NCBI GenBank assembly: GCA_012840535.1
Contig: DULF01000093.1
Span: 1 to 32,970 of the forward strand
DNA: 32,970 nt
Direction: 5' to 3'
DNA from: Clostridiaceae bacterium
Lineage (GTDB): Bacteria; Bacillota; Clostridia; Acetivibrionales; DUMB01
The translations under genes and the position numbers were made by a program. The stretch's first letter is position 1. Every line of letters starts with the position of its first letter. Below the pieces are notes generated by a model. It was given only the letters and a program-made list of their open reading frames with translations. It was not told the DNA's origin and made no database searches. Below are positions 1,435-9,451 of this stretch, one piece after another.

Positions 1435-2493
1435 CTACGTGTCAATCTCCAGGCCTTCTTCCAGGAGTTTTGATATTTCTTCGTTTATTTTCTTTCTAAT
1501 ATAATTAATTGAAGAAATTACCCTTGGATACTCCATTCTGGTTGGCCCAATAACCCCTAATGAACCTATAACAACATTACCGAGACTGTAAGTGGCAGTC
1601 AGTAAACTGCATTCCTTTATCTCGTCCAAAATATTTTCCGTTCCGATTCGCACACTAACGCTGTTGTTATTTTGCCCGGTACTGCTTAATATTTTGCTTA
1701 AGTTTTCTTTTTCATCCAAAGTACTTAAGAACTCTCTTGCCTTGGCAACATTTCTAAACTCAGGATAGTTGAAAATGTTTGTCACTCCGTCAATAAAAAC
1801 CTCAGGAGCATCAATCTGCTTTATACAGCCTACGACCTTTTCTATAACCGGCAGAAGTATATCCCTGGGTACTTCAATTTCGTTGCCCATATCCTTAATG
1901 CTTGGCTGCTTGATGTCTTCGATCGCGAAATTTGCAAACTTGTCGTTAAGCATATTGGAAACTTTAATTAAATCTTCGGAAACTATGCTATCTGATATTT
2001 TTATCAGAAAATTTTTCACCATGCCTGTATTTGTAACAACGACAACAAGTGCCTTACCGGTCTCAACGGGCACAACTTGAACAGCTTTCAGCAAGCTTTT
2101 TTTCATATTTGGAGTTACCGCCATTGAAGTATACTTGGTAAACCGGGACATCACGGTCGAAGCCAGCTTGATTAACTGGCCTATCTCACTGACGCGTACC
2201 TCCATGGCTTGCTCTATGTTTCTTATTTCTTCTTCTGTCAGCTCTTTTACTTGCATCAATTCATCAACGTAATACCTGTATCCTTTATCTGAAGGTATTC
2301 TGCCGGCTGATGTATGAGGCTGCTCAAGATAACCCATCTCTTCCAGGTCTGCCATTTCATTTCTTATTGTTGCCGAGCTCAAACCAAGTTCGTGCTTCCT
2401 GGCGATAGTCCTGGAGCCTACAGGTTCAGCGGTATCGATATAATCATCAACTATTGCTTGCAGTATCCTCCTTTTCCTGTTGTCCAGAATCAT
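1435..2493 (-). CDS. hrcA: HrcA heat-shock repressor
   Basis: Transcriptional repressor that binds CIRCE operators and depends on GroEL for activity, coupling chaperone supply to expression of class I heat-shock genes. The 352-residue length is normal. The N-terminal winged helix spans about residues 1-75, with signatures EPVGSRT, SSATIRNEMADLE and HTSAGRIPSDKGYRYYVD. The rest is the GAF-like dimerisation domain. The ATG at 2491-2493 has AAGGGGTG upstream. A perfect CIRCE element sits 17 bases ahead of the start codon, so the gene is autoregulated. It heads hrcA-grpE-dnaK; dnaJ is expected beyond the left edge. Confidence 0.97.
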   Translation of the reverse strand: MILDNRKRRILQAIVDDYIDTAEPVGSRTIARKHELGLSSATIRNEMADLEEMGYLEQPHTSAGRIPSDKGYRYYVDELMQVKELTEEEIRNIEQAMEVRVSEIGQLIKLASTVMSRFTKYTSMAVTPNMKKSLLKAVQVVPVETGKALVVVVTNTGMVKNFLIKISDSIVSEDLIKVSNMLNDKFANFAIEDIKQPSIKDMGNEIEVPRDILLPVIEKVVGCIKQIDAPEVFIDGVTNIFNYPEFRNVAKAREFLSTLDEKENLSKILSSTGQNNNSVSVRIGTENILDEIKECSLLTATYSLGNVVIGSLGVIGPTRMEYPRVISSINYIRKKINEEISKLLEEGLEIDT

Positions 2494-2509
2494 TTCTTAC
2501 ACCCCTTTG

Positions 2510-2536
2510 TTAGCACTCTCACTCATCGAGTGCTAA
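2510..2536 (-). promoter_or_regulatory. CIRCE operator (HrcA binding site)
   Basis: A perfect TTAGCACTC-N9-GAGTGCTAA inverted repeat, identical to the CIRCE consensus. It begins four to five bases after the predicted transcription start of hrcA and lies wholly in the leader. HrcA bound here should block the hrcA-grpE-dnaK transcript. Confidence 0.98.
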
Positions 2537-2546
2537 TCATATCTTA

Positions 2547-2575
2547 AAAATACCACCCTATTTATTTTTTGTCAA
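2547..2575 (-). promoter_or_regulatory. Sigma-A promoter of hrcA-grpE-dnaK
   Basis: Minus strand TTGACA (2570-2575), a 17-base spacer, then TATTTT (2547-2552). The -35 box is perfect and the spacing ideal. The predicted start near 2540 places CIRCE immediately downstream, the standard class I heat-shock arrangement. Confidence 0.85.
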
Positions 2576-2622
2576 GTGGTTTTACCGATATTATTTGTAA
2601 TCTGTATGATATTATATACCGG

Positions 2623-3774
2623 TTAAAGAAACTCAATAAAAACCTGATTTGCCAAATCCAGCCCTAATTTTGTGAGACGGAGGGTTCTTTCATTAAATTC
2701 TATCAGCCCCCTGGAAATCAGCCTGTCTATTTGCTTTCCGAATAAATCAAAAACATCTGTTTCAAATTTCATTTTAAACTTATCAACATCAACGCCACGA
2801 ATCAACCTTAATCCAAGTATAATATATTCCGAAATCTGCCCGTTAATATCTATTTCTTCGATATTTTCCCGGTGAAACTGATTTTTGGCCGCACAATTTA
2901 TATAATTATTCAAATCATAGGTGTTGTTATATCTTTTGCCGTTAAAATACGAATGCGCTCCGGCGCCCAAACCTATATACTGTCTTCCTTCCCAGTAAAC
3001 GAGGTTATGCTTGCATTCAAACCCGGGTTTTGAGAAATTTGAGATTTCGTAGTGCCTGAAACCATGCCCGGCCAACCTGTCTATGGCGAAATGATACATT
3101 TGCCTGTCCAGTTCGTCTTCAACAGGCTTTAGCCTACCCTCTCCAAGCATATCGCCAAAAACCGTTCCTTCCTCAATTTTCAAACTGTAACATGAAATAT
3201 GGGAAGGCTTGAGTTCAGCCACATTATCAACCGTCTCTGTCCAGTCGTCAAATGTCTGACCCGGCAAACCAAATATCAAATCTACATTAATATTTGTAAA
3301 ACCCGCTTTCCTTGCAAGTTCAAAGTTCTCAATAAATTCTCCTGAACGATGAATTCTGCCGATACTCTCCAAAAGCCTGTCCTGCCATGCCTGCATTCCT
3401 ATGCTGAGCCTGTTGATACCTGTGTCCAGGTACGTTGCCAGTTTATCAAAGGACAGTGTGCCGGGGTTGGCTTCAATGCTTATTTCAGCTCCGGGCTCAA
3501 TGTTAAAATGCTTCCTGCAATTGTTAATGAGCTCACGTATACAGTTTGCATCAACCACCGACGGCGTGCCACCACCAATATAAACAGTGCCGATCTTGTA
3601 ATTTCCCAAAATTCCTTTGTAAGATTCAATTTCATTCTTTAAAGCTTGAAAATACGGATAGATTATATCTTCCCTTCCTGCAAACGAGAAAAAGTCGCAG
3701 TAATAACACTTTGATTTGCAAAAGGGAATGTGTATATATAACCCCAGTGTATTGTCATTTTTCTGTGTTTGCAT
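2623..3774 (-). CDS. hemW: HemW-type radical SAM heme chaperone
   Basis: Radical SAM protein long annotated as oxygen-independent coproporphyrinogen oxidase, now understood as the HemW heme-trafficking branch. The cluster motif CKSKCYYCDF (Cys19, Cys23, Cys26) has the CxxxCxxCxF form of HemW rather than CxxxCxxCxC of HemN. GGGTPS and the HemN C-terminal domain follow. I start at the ATG at 3772-3774 (MQTQKNDNTLGLYIHIPF) because AGAGG sits seven bases upstream and the 15 extra upstream residues do not resemble the family. Product 383 residues. It follows lepA by 122 bases in the conserved order lepA-hemW-hrcA and probably shares the lepA transcript. That spacer holds an imperfect hairpin, 3820-3850, of unknown role. 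Confidence 0.93.
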   Translation of the reverse strand: MQTQKNDNTLGLYIHIPFCKSKCYYCDFFSFAGREDIIYPYFQALKNEIESYKGILGNYKIGTVYIGGGTPSVVDANCIRELINNCRKHFNIEPGAEISIEANPGTLSFDKLATYLDTGINRLSIGMQAWQDRLLESIGRIHRSGEFIENFELARKAGFTNINVDLIFGLPGQTFDDWTETVDNVAELKPSHISCYSLKIEEGTVFGDMLGEGRLKPVEDELDRQMYHFAIDRLAGHGFRHYEISNFSKPGFECKHNLVYWEGRQYIGLGAGAHSYFNGKRYNNTYDLNNYINCAAKNQFHRENIEEIDINGQISEYIILGLRLIRGVDVDKFKMKFETDVFDLFGKQIDRLISRGLIEFNERTLRLTKLGLDLANQVFIEFL

Positions 3775-3896
3775 TCCCAAACCTCTTGTCTCTCCACTCA
3801 AAACCATCAGATCTCTCACCGTTGTCCCGGCCGTTTTGGGACCCGCAACGCAAATTTCCGCAATTTTTGCTTCATATTCTTATCATATGCTTATCA

Positions 3897-5708
3897 TCAG
3901 ACATCCAGCTTCAATACACTCATGAACGCCTCCTGCGGCACTTCAACCGTTCCTATCTGACGCATTCGTTTCTTGCCCTCTTTCTGCTTTTCCAGCAGTT
4001 TCTTCTTTCGGGTAATGTCGCCTCCATAGCATTTTGCAAGGACGTCTTTCCTGTAAGCCTTAACTGTTTCCCTGGCAATAATTTTCCCGCCTATGCACGC
4101 CTGTATAGGAATTTCAAATTGTTGTCTCGGAATTGTTTCCTTAAGCTTTTCCGCAATCTTTCTTGCCCTTGGATATGCTTTTTCCCTATGCACTATAAAA
4201 GAAAGGGCATCCACAATTTCGCCATTTATAAGTATATCAAGCTTTACGAGATCGGACTCCTTGTACCCTATGAATTCATAATCAAGGGAAGCGTATCCCT
4301 TGGTTCTGGATTTCAGCGCGTCAAAAAAGTCATAAATAATCTCATTTAAAGGCAATTCATAAGTGAGTATTACCCTTTTCTCGTCAATATAGGTCATATC
4401 TTTGAAAATACCGCGCCTCTCCTGTGAAAGCTCCATAATGTTGCCAACGTAGTCAGTAGGGGTCATAATGGTAGCTTTAACCATAGGCTCCTCCATTTTA
4501 TCAATTACATTAACCGGCGGCATATTTGTAGGGTTGTCAACATATTTTACCTCTCCGTCGGTCTTGGTTATTCTATAGACAACGCTGGGAGCCGTGGTTA
4601 CCAGGTCGAGATCATATTCCCTCTCAAGCCTCTCCTGTATTACATCCATATGGAGAAGCCCGAGGAAGCCGCACCTGAAACCAAATCCCAACGCAGCGGA
4701 AGTTTCCGGTTCAAACACCAGCGACGCATCATTTAATTGAAGCTTTTCAAGGGCATCTCTCAAATCTTCATACTTCGCCCCGTCTGCAGGGTAAATTCCG
4801 CAGAAAACCATGGGGTTTACTTTTCTGTAACCCGGCAATGGCTCCGCCGCAGGATTGTCTGCAAGGGTTATTGTATCTCCGACCCTTGTGTCCTTGACAT
4901 TCTTTATGCTGGCGGCAATATAGCCAACATCACCTGCATAAAGTTTATCACACGGCGCCAGGGCTCCCGGCCTGAAATACCCGACCTCTGTCACAAGAAA
5001 CTCCTTCCTGGTGTTCATCATTCTGATAACGTCACCGGGTTTCACGCTTCCTTCCTTTACTCTCACGTGCACTATGACACCCTTGTAATTGTCATAGTAC
5101 GAATCGAATATTAGAGCCCGCAGAGGAGCGTCTTCATCTCCTTCAGGATTTGGTATCTTTTTTACAATGCTCTCAAGCACTTCTTCAATATTAATTGAAT
5201 TTTTTGCCGATATTAAAGGCGCATCCGAAGCATCCAGACCTATAACATCCTCTATTTCCTTCTTCACATGTTCAGGCTGCGCGCCGGGCAAATCAATTTT
5301 GTTAATAACAGGAACAATTTCTAAATCATGCTCAAGCGCCAGGTAAACGTTAGCCAGTGTCTGGGCTTCTATGCCTTGCGAAGCGTCTACGACCAGAATC
5401 GCGCCTTCACAGGCAGCCAGGCTTCTTGACACTTCATAATTAAAATCCACATGTCCCGGCGTATCTATAAGATTGAATATATATTCTTTGCCGTCATTGG
5501 CATTATATATCATTCTTACAGCCTGAGCCTTGATTGTGATGCCTCTCTCGCGTTCAATATCCATATTGTCCAAAACCTGTTCAGCCATCTCCCGTTCTGT
5601 CAGGACACCGGTTTTCTCAATCAACCTGTCGGCCAGAGTCGATTTTCCGTGATCTATATGTGCAATTATGCAAAAATTCCTTGTTTTCTTTTGTCTTTCA
5701 CTTGCCAT
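3897..5708 (-). CDS. lepA: Elongation factor 4 (LepA), ribosome back-translocase GTPase
   Basis: Translational GTPase of the EF-G family that acts on stalled or mistranslocated ribosomes. The product is 603 residues, the usual length. Motifs in order are G1 AHIDHGKST near residue 16, [10 protein letters not shown] (switch I), DTPGHVDF (G3) and NKIDLP (G4). The LepA-specific C-terminal domain has [15 protein letters not shown] close to the end. The ATG at 5706-5708 ([11 protein letters not shown]) has GGAGGAG eight bases upstream; a longer reading to 5753 would run through the promoter. The gene has its own promoter and two terminator-like hairpins upstream, which insulate it from the isomerase operon. 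Confidence 0.98.
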
Positions 5709-5751
5709 TAAAATACTCCTCCAAAGTAGTGTAAGCCATTTTCTTTGAAAC

Positions 5752-5781
5752 ATTATAGCACAGCGTTGCTTTACGCGGCAA
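5752..5781 (-). promoter_or_regulatory. Promoter of lepA
   Basis: Minus strand TTGCCG (5776-5781), an 18-base spacer and a perfect TATAAT (5752-5757). It lies about 44 bases ahead of the lepA start codon. The -35 box matches four of six positions. Confidence 0.65.
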
Positions 5782-5805
5782 TACAGGTAACCGTGAAGCT
5801 ATATA

Positions 5806-5861
5806 TAAAAAGAAACCAAAATATAAAGGAAAATCTGTCTTTTTCCTTTATATTTTGGTTT
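5806..5861 (-). terminator. Long AT-rich perfect hairpin with T tract
   Basis: Two perfectly complementary 21-base arms (5813-5833 and 5841-5861) flank a 7-base loop. On the minus strand the stem is followed by CTTTTTATATA, so it fits a rho-independent terminator for transcripts coming from the isomerase side. It ends about 30 bases before the lepA -35 box. The stem is unusually long and AT-rich for a plain terminator. Confidence 0.6.
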
Positions 5862-6101
5862 ATATTCTAGATTTATTTCAAAAAATAATACATTTTATTA
5901 TGAAACACTTTGTTAAAGCCTTATTCCCTGACATGGGGAAATTATCAAGGACGCCTTTTAGTGGTTTGCTTATTTTTAATAAATCCATTTTTCATATTTG
6001 ACTATGAATTCTAGAAAATTGTTCCAAAAAAAGCTACGGATGATGCTCTTTATAATTCTTTATGTTTATTGTTCTATCATGAAAAATATGTGATTCCAGG
6101 C
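5862..6101. other. AT-rich spacer without a recognisable gene
   Basis: Part of the 460-base gap between lepA and the isomerase gene. I see no credible reading frame, RNA gene, repeat or promoter in this stretch. The flanking parts of the gap hold the lepA promoter and two hairpins, listed separately. Confidence 0.6.
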
Positions 6102-6135
6102 AAAAAAATAGGGACTAAGTACGCGTCCCTATTTT
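6102..6135 (-). terminator. Rho-independent terminator of the isomerase operon
   Basis: An 11-bp stem (6105-6115 with 6125-6135, core AATAGGGAC/GTCCCTATT) with a 9-base loop lies 34 bases after the isomerase stop. On the minus strand it runs into seven or more T residues before GCC, a textbook intrinsic terminator. Confidence 0.85.
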
Positions 6136-6168
6136 AAGATTTACCTGAATCCTTAATTTAAATCCACT

Positions 6169-7473
6169 CTAAAATTTTATTAATCTTATCTTGTTAAGTC
6201 TGCAGAAATACTCCAGTTCCTTTACTAAATCGCCGTATCCGGCCATCCAGTGATGACCGATGCCTTCATTGGCAATTATCCTGTTAATTTCATTTATATC
6301 TCTTTCAAATTTAACTTTCAGCGGATTCCCCGGAAATTCCATACCGCACTGTATGGCTTCGCCTGTAATTACCGACATTCTGAAAGTGCCTTTTCTCCCG
6401 ACTATATTAACCAGTGTCACCTTTCCTGTCTTTGCAGGGAAAAGGGAACAAACTCCTGTATCGGCCAGCCGTACAGGTCCAAAATGGATATCATTGTAGC
6501 TGCTTGCTATCGAAAAACCACCTGAACCGCAGTGGGAGAATAAAACCGTATTAAGTTCAGGGTCGGGATACAGCAGGTCCGTATTGTGAACAGGCATACC
6601 TGACAGTTCATACAATATCTTCATTGACACAGTATTATTTATATCGCCTTCACACCCGCATACAATACCTTCTTCAGACAAAAGCGAGTATCCGAGACAA
6701 ACCTTGCCCATCCACTTAGGGTAACATTTGATTACCAGGCCTTCCAGGTCATATTTATTTATTAACTCTTTCATTGCAAAATAATACCTGACTGATTCAA
6801 TGCCATGTTTATCTGTTGAAGTAACTTTGCCAACTTTAGTTTTAAGATTGGCCCAGTATTCTCTTGCCTGTTCTTCATCCGTGGACTTAAAGGCTTCTGC
6901 CAGTTCATCCTCATCCAGATTTTCCACACGCACTCCTGTCCTGTCCTTTATCTCCAATTCATCATAGGCTATATCCGTCATTCCTTTTGTTCTTCCGCCT
7001 ATATTCCCTATCCTGACAAATCTCAATTTATTCCTCAACGCAACAGCCCTGGATATCTGTCCTATCTCAGTAATTACATTTGCATCATCAGTATTTCCGT
7101 ATACATAGAAATAGTCCTTATCCAGCTCTTTAAGCATGCAGCATATTTGCTGCACTCCACATAAAGAACCAGTGTCAACTGCCGGAAAAGCCCAAAGAAT
7201 AACCGGCTTATTGATATAATCAAGCAAATCAAGAAGGTGGTGGTCTTCACTCCATGTTCCCACACATACGCATAAAATGTCAAATTCTTTTCCTTTTAAA
7301 TCATTTGCAGCCTTTTTCATTGTACTGGTGTTATACATAACAGTATCAGATAATACAACTTCAAAACCTGCATTTTTCAAGCTTTCGCATGCACTTTTTA
7401 AAAGCCCAGGAGTTTTATCAAAACCAACTTCGAACTCACCTGCAAGAGCAACAAGTCCAATTATTGGTTTCAC
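6169..7473 (-). CDS. L-fucose/L-arabinose isomerase-family protein, substrate unknown
   Basis: A 434-residue cytoplasmic protein of the FucI/AraA ketol-isomerase superfamily. The N-terminal half is a Rossmann-like sugar-binding region (about 1-160). The C-terminal half carries candidate metal ligands Glu275 (in CEGDINN), Asp299 (in HNTDLLYPD) and His408 (in GIGHHWMAGYGD), placed as expected for the family's Glu/Asp/His divalent-metal site; His314 (SHCGSGG) is another candidate. These equivalences are by eye. It is shorter than E. coli FucI and AraA, typical of the uncharacterised branch. The start is GTG at 7471-7473 with GGGTGAT upstream, inside the end of the preceding methyltransferase gene; the gap is six bases, so the two are translationally linked. 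The substrate cannot be told from sequence. Confidence 0.85.
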   Translation of the reverse strand: MKPIIGLVALAGEFEVGFDKTPGLLKSACESLKNAGFEVVLSDTVMYNTSTMKKAANDLKGKEFDILCVCVGTWSEDHHLLDLLDYINKPVILWAFPAVDTGSLCGVQQICCMLKELDKDYFYVYGNTDDANVITEIGQISRAVALRNKLRFVRIGNIGGRTKGMTDIAYDELEIKDRTGVRVENLDEDELAEAFKSTDEEQAREYWANLKTKVGKVTSTDKHGIESVRYYFAMKELINKYDLEGLVIKCYPKWMGKVCLGYSLLSEEGIVCGCEGDINNTVSMKILYELSGMPVHNTDLLYPDPELNTVLFSHCGSGGFSIASSYNDIHFGPVRLADTGVCSLFPAKTGKVTLVNIVGRKGTFRMSVITGEAIQCGMEFPGNPLKVKFERDINEINRIIANEGIGHHWMAGYGDLVKELEYFCRLNKIRLIKF

Positions 7474-7479
7474 AACATA

Positions 7480-8922
7480 TCACCCTTTCAATCCCATTTG
7501 TTTTTCATATTTTTCAATTATCTCAGCCAGCCTCTTGCTGGTTTCTGAATCAAGCGGAGATTTACTGCCTTTTGCAAGTATGTCATCCACAATATCGCGC
7601 GCTTTCTGAGTTGAACTCTTTGCTCCCTTTCTCCTCCACATTTCATAGTTTGCTCCATTTGATACAAAGAGTTCTACATGCTCTCCGCTTCGCAGATTTT
7701 CAATAGTATTATCCTCCATCAGGTAAGTACCCCTGATGCCAACGTTAGCAATAGTATCAAATGCTATGGTTTCCTCATTAACTTCAATACCCCTAAGGAA
7801 CCTTCTCACGATCCTGCATATCTCGCTATCCATGACCAACTGTTCCAGACTGATTGACATACCTGTTCCGAACATGCCGAGATTTACAATCAAGTCATTG
7901 GCGCCTACAAGGCCTGCTACCGTGCTTAGCATCTTCTCCCATGCGCCCTGTTCGTCATGGAGGTTCGAATCATTGTCCGGAGCTGTTGTATGGCTGGGCA
8001 TGTTGTAATAATGTGCCATTTGTGCCCCCGCTATCCTGAGAAGCGATGACTCAGGCCTTCCTATAAGGACGTTTGTAAGCTTCATTTCGTATGTAGTCCA
8101 GGCTGCACCATATATTACAGGTGTTCCGGGACGAATCAACTGTGCTATGACTACTCCGGAAAGCACTTCCGTATTATGAAGTGTAAGAATTCCTGCAAGA
8201 GTATAGGGGGCTGTCATTCCTGTAATGGGCTGCGGGAGAAAATCAAGAGGGATTCCTTCTTTAGCACACACATATAATGCTTCTACCGCACCTCTTTCCC
8301 AATACAACGGGCTGGTAGTGGAAAGCTGGCTAGCAATATTTGATCCATCTGTAAGACTGTCTTTACCAAGCACGGCCTTTGCCATCTCAATTGCTGCTTC
8401 GTTTATTTTTTCGCTTTCACTTGAATAAAAGACTGGTTTTTTTGAATTGCAAAGTATTTCCTTGATTGAGTAAAGAAGAGCCGTTTCAGGAGTTACATCC
8501 TGTGGACTGTAAGGGACGCCTATTATATCTACATCCTCAAGGTAGTCCGATACGATTGCAAAATTCTCGACATCTTTTTTGGTAGCTTCACGTCTCTCTC
8601 CTGACTCATCCACCAGTGTAAAAACGGCATTATGTCCGCTGGCACAATATCTTTTACCATCTCCCAGGACAACAGCCACATTTCCGTTCCTGTCCAAAAG
8701 CTTCACCTGTGAAGGAACAGTCTTTAGGCACTTTTCAACAACACTCCGTGGAAATTTTACAGTCTGGGTGTCATAGTCCACAATACATCCGTTATCTTTC
8801 AGCAAGTTCAGTACTTTTGTACTATCAATTTTTAAGCCTACTTCTTCAAGCACCCTTAAGGAACTGTTGTGAATAAGATCGATGTCTTCTTTTGATAGGA
8901 CTTCCAGTGTTGACAGTCTCAT
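7480..8922 (-). CDS. MttB-superfamily (trimethylamine methyltransferase-like) protein, non-pyrrolysine
   Basis: A 480-residue TIM-barrel protein of the trimethylamine:corrinoid methyltransferase superfamily. Characterised relatives move a methyl group from trimethylamine or, in non-pyrrolysine members, from quaternary amines such as glycine betaine, to a corrinoid protein. No in-frame amber codon is present, so this is the non-pyrrolysine branch. The stretch SHTTAPDNDSNLHDEQGAWE corresponds by eye to the region holding pyrrolysine in true MttB. I start at the ATG at 8920-8922 (MRLSTLEVLSKEDI), preceded by GGGGTGGG at suitable distance; an upstream in-frame GTG at 8994 has no ribosome site. 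It is the first gene of a two-gene operon with the isomerase. No corrinoid protein, reactivase or transporter lies beside it, so methyl transfer is unproven. Confidence 0.88.
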   Translation of the reverse strand: MRLSTLEVLSKEDIDLIHNSSLRVLEEVGLKIDSTKVLNLLKDNGCIVDYDTQTVKFPRSVVEKCLKTVPSQVKLLDRNGNVAVVLGDGKRYCASGHNAVFTLVDESGERREATKKDVENFAIVSDYLEDVDIIGVPYSPQDVTPETALLYSIKEILCNSKKPVFYSSESEKINEAAIEMAKAVLGKDSLTDGSNIASQLSTTSPLYWERGAVEALYVCAKEGIPLDFLPQPITGMTAPYTLAGILTLHNTEVLSGVVIAQLIRPGTPVIYGAAWTTYEMKLTNVLIGRPESSLLRIAGAQMAHYYNMPSHTTAPDNDSNLHDEQGAWEKMLSTVAGLVGANDLIVNLGMFGTGMSISLEQLVMDSEICRIVRRFLRGIEVNEETIAFDTIANVGIRGTYLMEDNTIENLRSGEHVELFVSNGANYEMWRRKGAKSSTQKARDIVDDILAKGSKSPLDSETSKRLAEIIEKYEKQMGLKG

Positions 8923-9103
8923 AGTTTTTACACCCACCCCTTCTAAGTAAATTGTTTTATTTAGCTGTCTTCTTATAAGTTTTTGTGTCGTCACATGATG
9001 TCATATTGAATTGCAGACCTTTGCAGCCAGTAATATCAATTGTTTGCCCATTTCTAACTACGACTGTAATAAAATGCTTTAGAAATTATTATATGTATTA
9101 ATG

Positions 9104-9375: not shown

Positions 9376-9451
9376 TGGTGGAGCATAGGGGATTCGAACC
9401 CCTGACCCCCACACTGCCAGTGTGATGCGCTCCCAACTGCGCTAATGCCCC
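9376..9451 (-). tRNA. tRNA-Ala, anticodon GGC
   Basis: A 76-base tRNA with encoded CCA. The acceptor GGGGCAT pairs with ATGCTCC and includes the G3:U70 wobble recognised by alanyl-tRNA synthetase. The D arm is GCGC-AGTTGGGA-GCGC. The anticodon loop CTGGCAG reads GGC, decoding GCC (and GCT). The T arm is AGGGG-TTCGAAT-CCCCT. The discriminator base is A. The gene has its own promoter upstream and a hairpin downstream. Confidence 0.97.

Follow-up and report, generated by a model that had tools for sequence, protein, structure and literature searches.

The window, by which we mean the whole 32,970-nt stretch of DNA that was analysed, carries on its minus strand two adjacent genes, one for an MttB-superfamily methyltransferase and one for a predicted sugar isomerase. 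The upstream gene, mttB (7480-8922), encodes a non-pyrrolysine protein of 480 aa counted from its ATG, with the frame staying open upstream as far as a GTG at 8994, and is separated by 6 bases from the downstream isomerase gene (6169-7473, 434 aa, GTG start), exactly as an earlier, sequence-only reading of the region had it. Where that reading placed one strong promoter, a consensus scan located a promoter-like site on the minus strand (9150-9122, TTGACA-17 nt-TAAAAT, 11 of 12 consensus positions); because such sites are not commoner in the window than in shuffled sequence (7 found versus 10.8 expected), the word strong can only mean a match to the consensus. The single terminator it described lies behind the pair as an intrinsic-terminator-like hairpin with a U run (6135-6105, minus strand; fold -19.5 kcal/mol, z -4.0). 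Reading the sequence directly, we also noticed a Shine-Dalgarno-like AAAGGG for the isomerase (7483-7488, minus strand) that overlaps the end of mttB, making the proposed coupling of isomerase translation to mttB plausible. Just upstream of the pair is a tRNA-Ala gene (9376-9451) followed by a separate terminator, a 14-pair hairpin on the minus strand (9367-9337), and the pair is therefore its own unit. Genes for a two-component system and a sugar-type ABC transporter are located further upstream on the same strand as the pair.

The upstream gene product matches PF06253 over residues 3-477 (313.9 bits, E 1.6e-93, cut-off 25), and its function is well supported at the family level, while its score against the trimethylamine methyltransferase equivalog TIGR02369 remains below the cut-off (406 versus 525 bits). 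It is not a pyrrolysine protein, as the gene lacks an in-frame stop (TAG) and Asp316 occupies the position of Pyl334 in MttB. The closest solved structures are those of MtgB (9yce/2qne) and MttB (7xcm/7xcl). With the glycine betaine methyltransferase MtgB (2QNE, 9YCE) the window protein shares the fold family by sequence, about 30% identity over the full length and a residue other than lysine at the pyrrolysine position, but that residue is Leu in MtgB and Asp in the pair, and the Tyr/Gly/Arg/His of the MtgB pocket read His/Asn/His/Val, with H97, N98, H311 and D316 of the window protein standing against Y, G, R and L. Trimethylamine methyltransferase MttB (7XCL-7XCN) belongs to the same family, and the window protein keeps, as Gly354, the glycine (Gly372) that forms a hydrogen bond to the corrinoid when MttB is bound to MttC (PMC9842639); unlike that enzyme, the window protein has no pyrrolysine and does not keep the Pyl-orienting Gly110 and Tyr364. 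A structure model of the window MttB, built on five sequences, reached a pLDDT of 37.5 and was set aside.

A tree of 29 MttB proteins placed the pair's enzyme within an 18-member clade (support 100/99), apart from MtgB, MttB and the other copies of genome G410. The signature of this clade is GHNA and PSHTTAP[DEN], the motifs GHNA (96-99) and PSHTTAP (309-315) occurring in nearly all members and His311 in all of them. Gly354 is likewise retained throughout the clade, although MtgB has Phe there. At the pyrrolysine position, Asp is found in all pair members, Glu in C29 (a close paralogue with 71% identity and no isomerase beside it) and Asn in the other clade members. The clade members are found in sugar-type surroundings, which include GH38, DUF4432, gluconolactonase, Gfo/Idh and sugar ABC genes: C74 lies with DUF4432 and an AraC regulator, C141 with LacI and DegT, and the G410 copy on C499 with GH38, gluconolactonase and a zinc dehydrogenase, while the Atribacterota B group is found near DegT, ROK, a xylose-isomerase-like protein and sugar ABC genes.

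No Pfam family matched the isomerase. Its best-scoring named family is the NCBIfam sulfoquinovose isomerase SftI (NF048012; 180.6 bits, E 4.5e-53, cut-off 700), and the match to L-arabinose isomerase AraA (NF002795) is weak (22 bits, cut-off 622). The AF2 model, built from 20 sequences, reached a pLDDT of 92 and resembles E. coli AraA 4f2d (Foldseek E 4.5e-27; VIA-align Z 34.9, rmsd 3.5, 432 residues aligned) as well as L-fucose isomerase 1FUI (Z 30.8), placing it in the L-arabinose/L-fucose isomerase superfamily with the same fold over all 434 residues. The description as fucose-isomerase-like is thus fair by fold, with SftI as the nearest named family by sequence, below its cut-off. The window protein differs from AraA and FucI in being shorter, at about 15% identity, and in forming its own sequence family under all NCBIfam cut-offs. 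In the profile search alignment, E275 corresponds to AraA E306, H314 to H350 and HH 407-408 to the AraA HH pair, while D299 lies 24 residues past E275, the same spacing as between FucI E337 and D361. E275, D299, H314, H407 and H408 are invariant in the 20 isomerase sequences, and the metal site thus retains its Glu, Asp and His. Given the fold match of the model and the invariant catalytic residues, the protein is very likely an active metal-dependent aldose-ketose isomerase, and its function at the family level is well supported.

The sequence-only reading had proposed a neighbourhood search for adjacent members of both families and for recurrent third genes, and both were found. By scanning GTDB genome contigs for the isomerase and by searching 50 Atribacterota and 119 relatives, we detected the pair at nine loci including the window, that is, in three Clostridia and six Atribacterota genomes. 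The eight further loci (L005 and L006 in Clostridia, L007 and L008 in Atribacteria, and those of G434, G436, G438 and G439) share 61-76% identity with the window in MttB and 57-72% in the isomerase; a pair gene is cut by the contig end in L006, L007 and G436. Everywhere (9/9) MttB precedes the isomerase on one strand, with gaps of about 4-48 bases. Within the window's own class the pair is rare: among 391 genomes, an MttB this similar occurs in the window's genome only, and a similar isomerase, besides that of the window, only in G173 (51% identity), a genome without any MttB; SftI is the best-scoring named family for this isomerase as well.

While the isomerase stays directly behind MttB across the two phyla, the other neighbours vary. 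L005 has the order LacI, DegT, Gfo/Idh, xylose-isomerase-like, MttB, isomerase and GH38, with DegT two genes before the pair, whereas L007 and L008 read ROK, DegT, MttB and isomerase. Directly behind the pair, PotD, PotA, PotB and PotC are encoded in L006, L008, G434, G438 and G439. None of the nine loci has a corrinoid gene directly beside the pair. Rhizopine (3-O-methyl-scyllo-inosamine) was considered as a substrate and is a weak lead, insufficient to claim: a transporter protein at the distant locus L019 has the rhizopine-binding protein as its best match (65 bits, cut-off 420), and L005 combines a Gfo/Idh (MocA-type) gene with a xylose-isomerase-like gene.

No corrinoid protein or reactivase was seen within the window, as the sequence-only reading had stated, but both are encoded on other contigs of the same genome, so that their lack is not supported as a feature of the system. 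Single searches of the genome revealed one MttC/MtgC-type corrinoid protein (C194, 211 aa, PF02607 and PF02310, with the motif DLHDIGKN...SALLTTT...GG), one RACo/RamA reductive activase (C65, 609 aa) and one MtqA/AcsE-like methyl-THF methyltransferase (C127:24904-25695, 39% identity), in addition to at least four MttB genes. In a joint query, all three components were present in 7/7 pair-bearing relatives, or 8/8 with the window's genome, and the corrinoid motif DxHxxG...SxL...GG was found in 5/5 pair genomes examined. The G438 genome, one contig of 3.1 Mb, carries its corrinoid gene within a folate C1 cluster, beside a formate-THF-ligase-like gene and together with MTHFR-, Hdr- and MtqA-like genes, these names being assigned by eye from the sequence start and not by a family scan. 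A cobalamin riboswitch, sought as regulatory evidence near the pair and near the corrinoid genes, was not found.

This organization resembles the one described for Eubacterium limosum, in which MtpB, MtcB and MtyB share one MtqC, MtqA and RamQ set encoded apart from them (PMC8604678). There, as in the window's genome, a non-pyrrolysine PF06253 enzyme is separated from the corrinoid protein, reactivase and methyl-THF methyltransferase that several MttBs have in common, and the simplest reading by analogy is that the machinery serving the pair is unlinked and shared. The clade of the window differs from these betaine enzymes in its own signature and in its sugar-type loci. We know of no isomerase partner for MtpB, MtcB or MtyB. 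Since the window's genome has only one B12-binding_2 domain, the corrinoid set may also serve methionine synthesis, with the single corrinoid protein, RACo and MtqA-like enzyme acting in a split methionine synthase; such sharing is known from marine bacteria (PMC12478193).

In other phyla as well, isomerases of this lineage are associated with methyltransferase-type proteins. Fifteen distant relatives (35-40% identity) form a sister group from Planctomycetota, Verrucomicrobiota, Kiritimatiellota, Lentisphaerota, Armatimonadota, Chloroflexota, Spirochaetota, Poribacteria and one uncultured bacterium, and in 10 of these 15 loci the isomerase gene is preceded at a short distance by a UroD-superfamily gene, always of the same family, often in the order DegT-UroD-isomerase (DegT is linked in 9/15). 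Among the members of the UroD superfamily are corrinoid O-demethylases and haloalkane demethylases (PMC13222342), and it is the superfamily of MtvB, OdmB, VdmB, MtoB and CdmB that fills the slot before the isomerase in the PVC, Chloroflexi and Armatimonadota loci, although MttB belongs to a different family and the isomerase-linked UroD members are uncharacterised. A short corrinoid protein and RACo were present in all 15 sister-group genomes. For RACo, the background, which covers Planctomycetota only, is 123 of 392 genomes (31%), and the 5/5 planctomycete carriers correspond to a chance of 0.003 in samples that are not independent. The isomerase tree has a supported split (97/97, 100/99) that separates the MttB-linked from the UroD-linked sequences. 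At one locus, L013, a distant MttB lies behind the isomerase, and because this isomerase falls inside the UroD side of the tree, its position suggests that the link to MttB arose there independently. In L014 (Poribacteria) a PhyH-type dioxygenase is found behind the isomerase instead, which might, as a speculation, be an oxygen-dependent alternative.

We lean towards a catabolic role for the pair, as the window's share of a module that breaks down a methylated, sugar-like compound, with MttB demethylating this compound onto a shared corrinoid protein. In the first step, MttB would transfer a methyl group to Co(I) of the one MttC-type corrinoid protein encoded elsewhere in the genome, the RACo/RamA protein would keep the cobalt reduced, and the MtqA/AcsE-like enzyme would hand the methyl group to tetrahydrofolate; the isomerase would act on the sugar part, either before or after demethylation. 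We infer the functional pairing of MttB with the isomerase from gene order. Across both isomerase groups, an isomerase whose active site is intact adjoins a methyltransferase from one of two corrinoid-type superfamilies, often with an aminotransferase gene nearby. Among the points that count for this reading are the recurrence of the pair at nine loci of two phyla in the same order and on the same strand, the linked DegT and PotDABC genes, the presence of corrinoid protein, RACo and MtqA/AcsE-like enzyme in 8/8 pair genomes tested, the folate C1 cluster of G438, the intact fold and catalytic residues of the isomerase, a gene from a superfamily with corrinoid O-demethylases before the isomerase in 10/15 sister-group loci, the corrinoid protein and RACo in 15/15 genomes of that group, and the precedent of E. 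limosum. The joint substrate suggested in the sequence-only reading, a methylated sugar or a sugar derivative with an N-methyl group, is a sensible class and is strengthened, though not proven. The linked DegT and PotDABC-type (cation/opine) transporter genes in the relatives suggest that the substrate probably also carries nitrogen, examples being an N-methylated amino sugar or a methylated aminocyclitol; any particular identity is a guess. Counting against this reading, all characterised members of the MttB superfamily, which fall outside the window's clade, use trimethylamine or quaternary amines. Furthermore, the isomerase occurs without MttB in G173 and the C29 MttB without an isomerase beside it, the corrinoid set could serve a split methionine synthase, and no cobalamin riboswitch accompanies the pair. 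Most UroD-family proteins found in sugar loci have no known function, which weighs on the same side.

Another explanation would be that MttB demethylates an ordinary quaternary amine, a betaine, imported by the PotDABC-type transporter, with the isomerase as an unrelated neighbour kept by gene order. The known non-pyrrolysine MttB enzymes do all act on quaternary amines, and it is a polyamine-type transporter that is linked to the pair in Atribacterota and L006; however, the isomerase remains directly behind MttB across two phyla amid changing neighbours, the 18-member clade lies amid GH38, DUF4432, gluconolactonase, Gfo/Idh and sugar ABC genes, and H97, N98, H311 and D316 depart from the MtgB residues at these positions. 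We regard this explanation as unlikely. More improbable still is a use of the MttB fold without a corrinoid, in which the protein was recruited for another reaction on the isomerase's substrate, an option also raised in the sequence-only reading. It would fit the lack of a corrinoid gene in the window and right next to the pair at all nine loci, and several active-site positions that differ from those of the characterised enzymes, but it is at odds with the corrinoid protein, RACo and MtqA-like enzyme in 8/8 pair genomes tested and with the glycine at position 354, kept in the whole clade even though MtgB has Phe there. As this machinery is encoded elsewhere in the genome and in the seven relatives, as in E. 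limosum, there is no reason to propose a reaction other than methyl transfer, and the corrinoid-free use was set aside.

It is also very improbable that the isomerase is a sulfoquinovose isomerase and that the module handles a sulfonated instead of a methylated sugar. Among named families, both the window isomerase and that of G173 score best with SftI, and at the distant locus L009 a glycyl-radical enzyme adjoining the isomerase matches, among others, sulfopropanediol dehydratase. The score of 181 bits is far from the cut-off of 700, however, no sulfosugar genes lie beside the pair, and hydroxyproline dehydratase is a better match for the L009 enzyme, which stays far under every cut-off; a sulfonate would moreover leave the MttB or UroD in the next slot unexplained. 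Returning to the methylated sugar-like substrate, we propose only tentatively that the pair represents a pathway of an undescribed kind. In this pathway, a sugar or amino sugar would be demethylated by a corrinoid methyltransferase, which would be MttB in Clostridia and Atribacterota and a UroD-type enzyme in the other phyla, next to a dedicated isomerase. The MttB clade that carries Asp at the pyrrolysine position would then be its superfamily's first example with a carbohydrate substrate. A search of the available literature on corrinoid sugar demethylation and on the MttB-isomerase pair returned nothing relevant.

The MttB superfamily is large, but substrates are known for only a minority of its members, namely trimethylamine and a few quaternary amines. 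Here, we present a clade linked by gene order to a sugar isomerase, an aminotransferase, glycosidases and sugar transporters, which points to a substrate class that is apparently new to testing and offers short, assayable operons. The pair probably helps anaerobes to use a methylated sugar-like compound. If true, this would be an anaerobic, corrinoid-based removal of methyl groups from sugars, a demethylation that to our knowledge is otherwise known only from oxygen-dependent enzymes in aerobes, and it would provide a source of methyl groups for folate metabolism in the little-studied Atribacterota.

A tRNA-Ala (GGC) gene with a strong terminator is located just upstream of the MttB-isomerase pair (window 9376-9451) and is a possible insertion site for it. 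Beyond the pair, a LepA-like elongation factor 4 gene was recognized by eye from the sequence (window 3897-5753); therefore, the pair appears to lie next to housekeeping genes.

Genome G000 also has MttB genes on contigs C29 and C141. On C29 (locus L027, 9002-10441), a paralogue of the pair's MttB (71%) occurs without an isomerase, comes after genes for a two-component system and an ABC transporter of the sugar type, and carries Glu at the pyrrolysine position, in contrast to Asp in the MttB of the pair. On C141 (locus L030), a second MttB (54%, 1643-3079) adjoins the end of a third copy (3026-3245), and these copies neighbour a LacI regulator as well as a DegT gene truncated by the contig end. 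The start of this DegT gene is closely similar to that of the DegT operon in L005, a Clostridia locus with the pair.

In a Lentisphaerae genome (L009, 4991-8184), the isomerase is directly followed by a glycyl-radical enzyme and its activase; the models closest to this enzyme were hydroxyproline dehydratase, sulfopropanediol dehydratase and choline TMA-lyase, all far under the cut-off. Directly behind the Poribacteria isomerase stands a PhyH-type dioxygenase (L014, 4912-5634), whereas in other phyla UroD or MttB is found beside the isomerase. At L012, DegT is separated from the isomerase by two genes, GH38 and one for a glycerophosphodiester phosphodiesterase (3642-7638).

In G431, a Clostridia MAG carrying the pair, two corrinoid proteins are encoded in a single cluster (L119, 1-9688) together with UroD, DUF1638, an AcsE-like enzyme and folate-type C1 genes. 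The genome of L005, G410, possesses approximately 12 MttB genes from several clades. One of these, on contig C94, has large hydrolase-like genes and sugar ABC genes around it as well as a UroD-like gene, a setting that suggests that MttB and UroD enzymes are used more widely in glycan loci.
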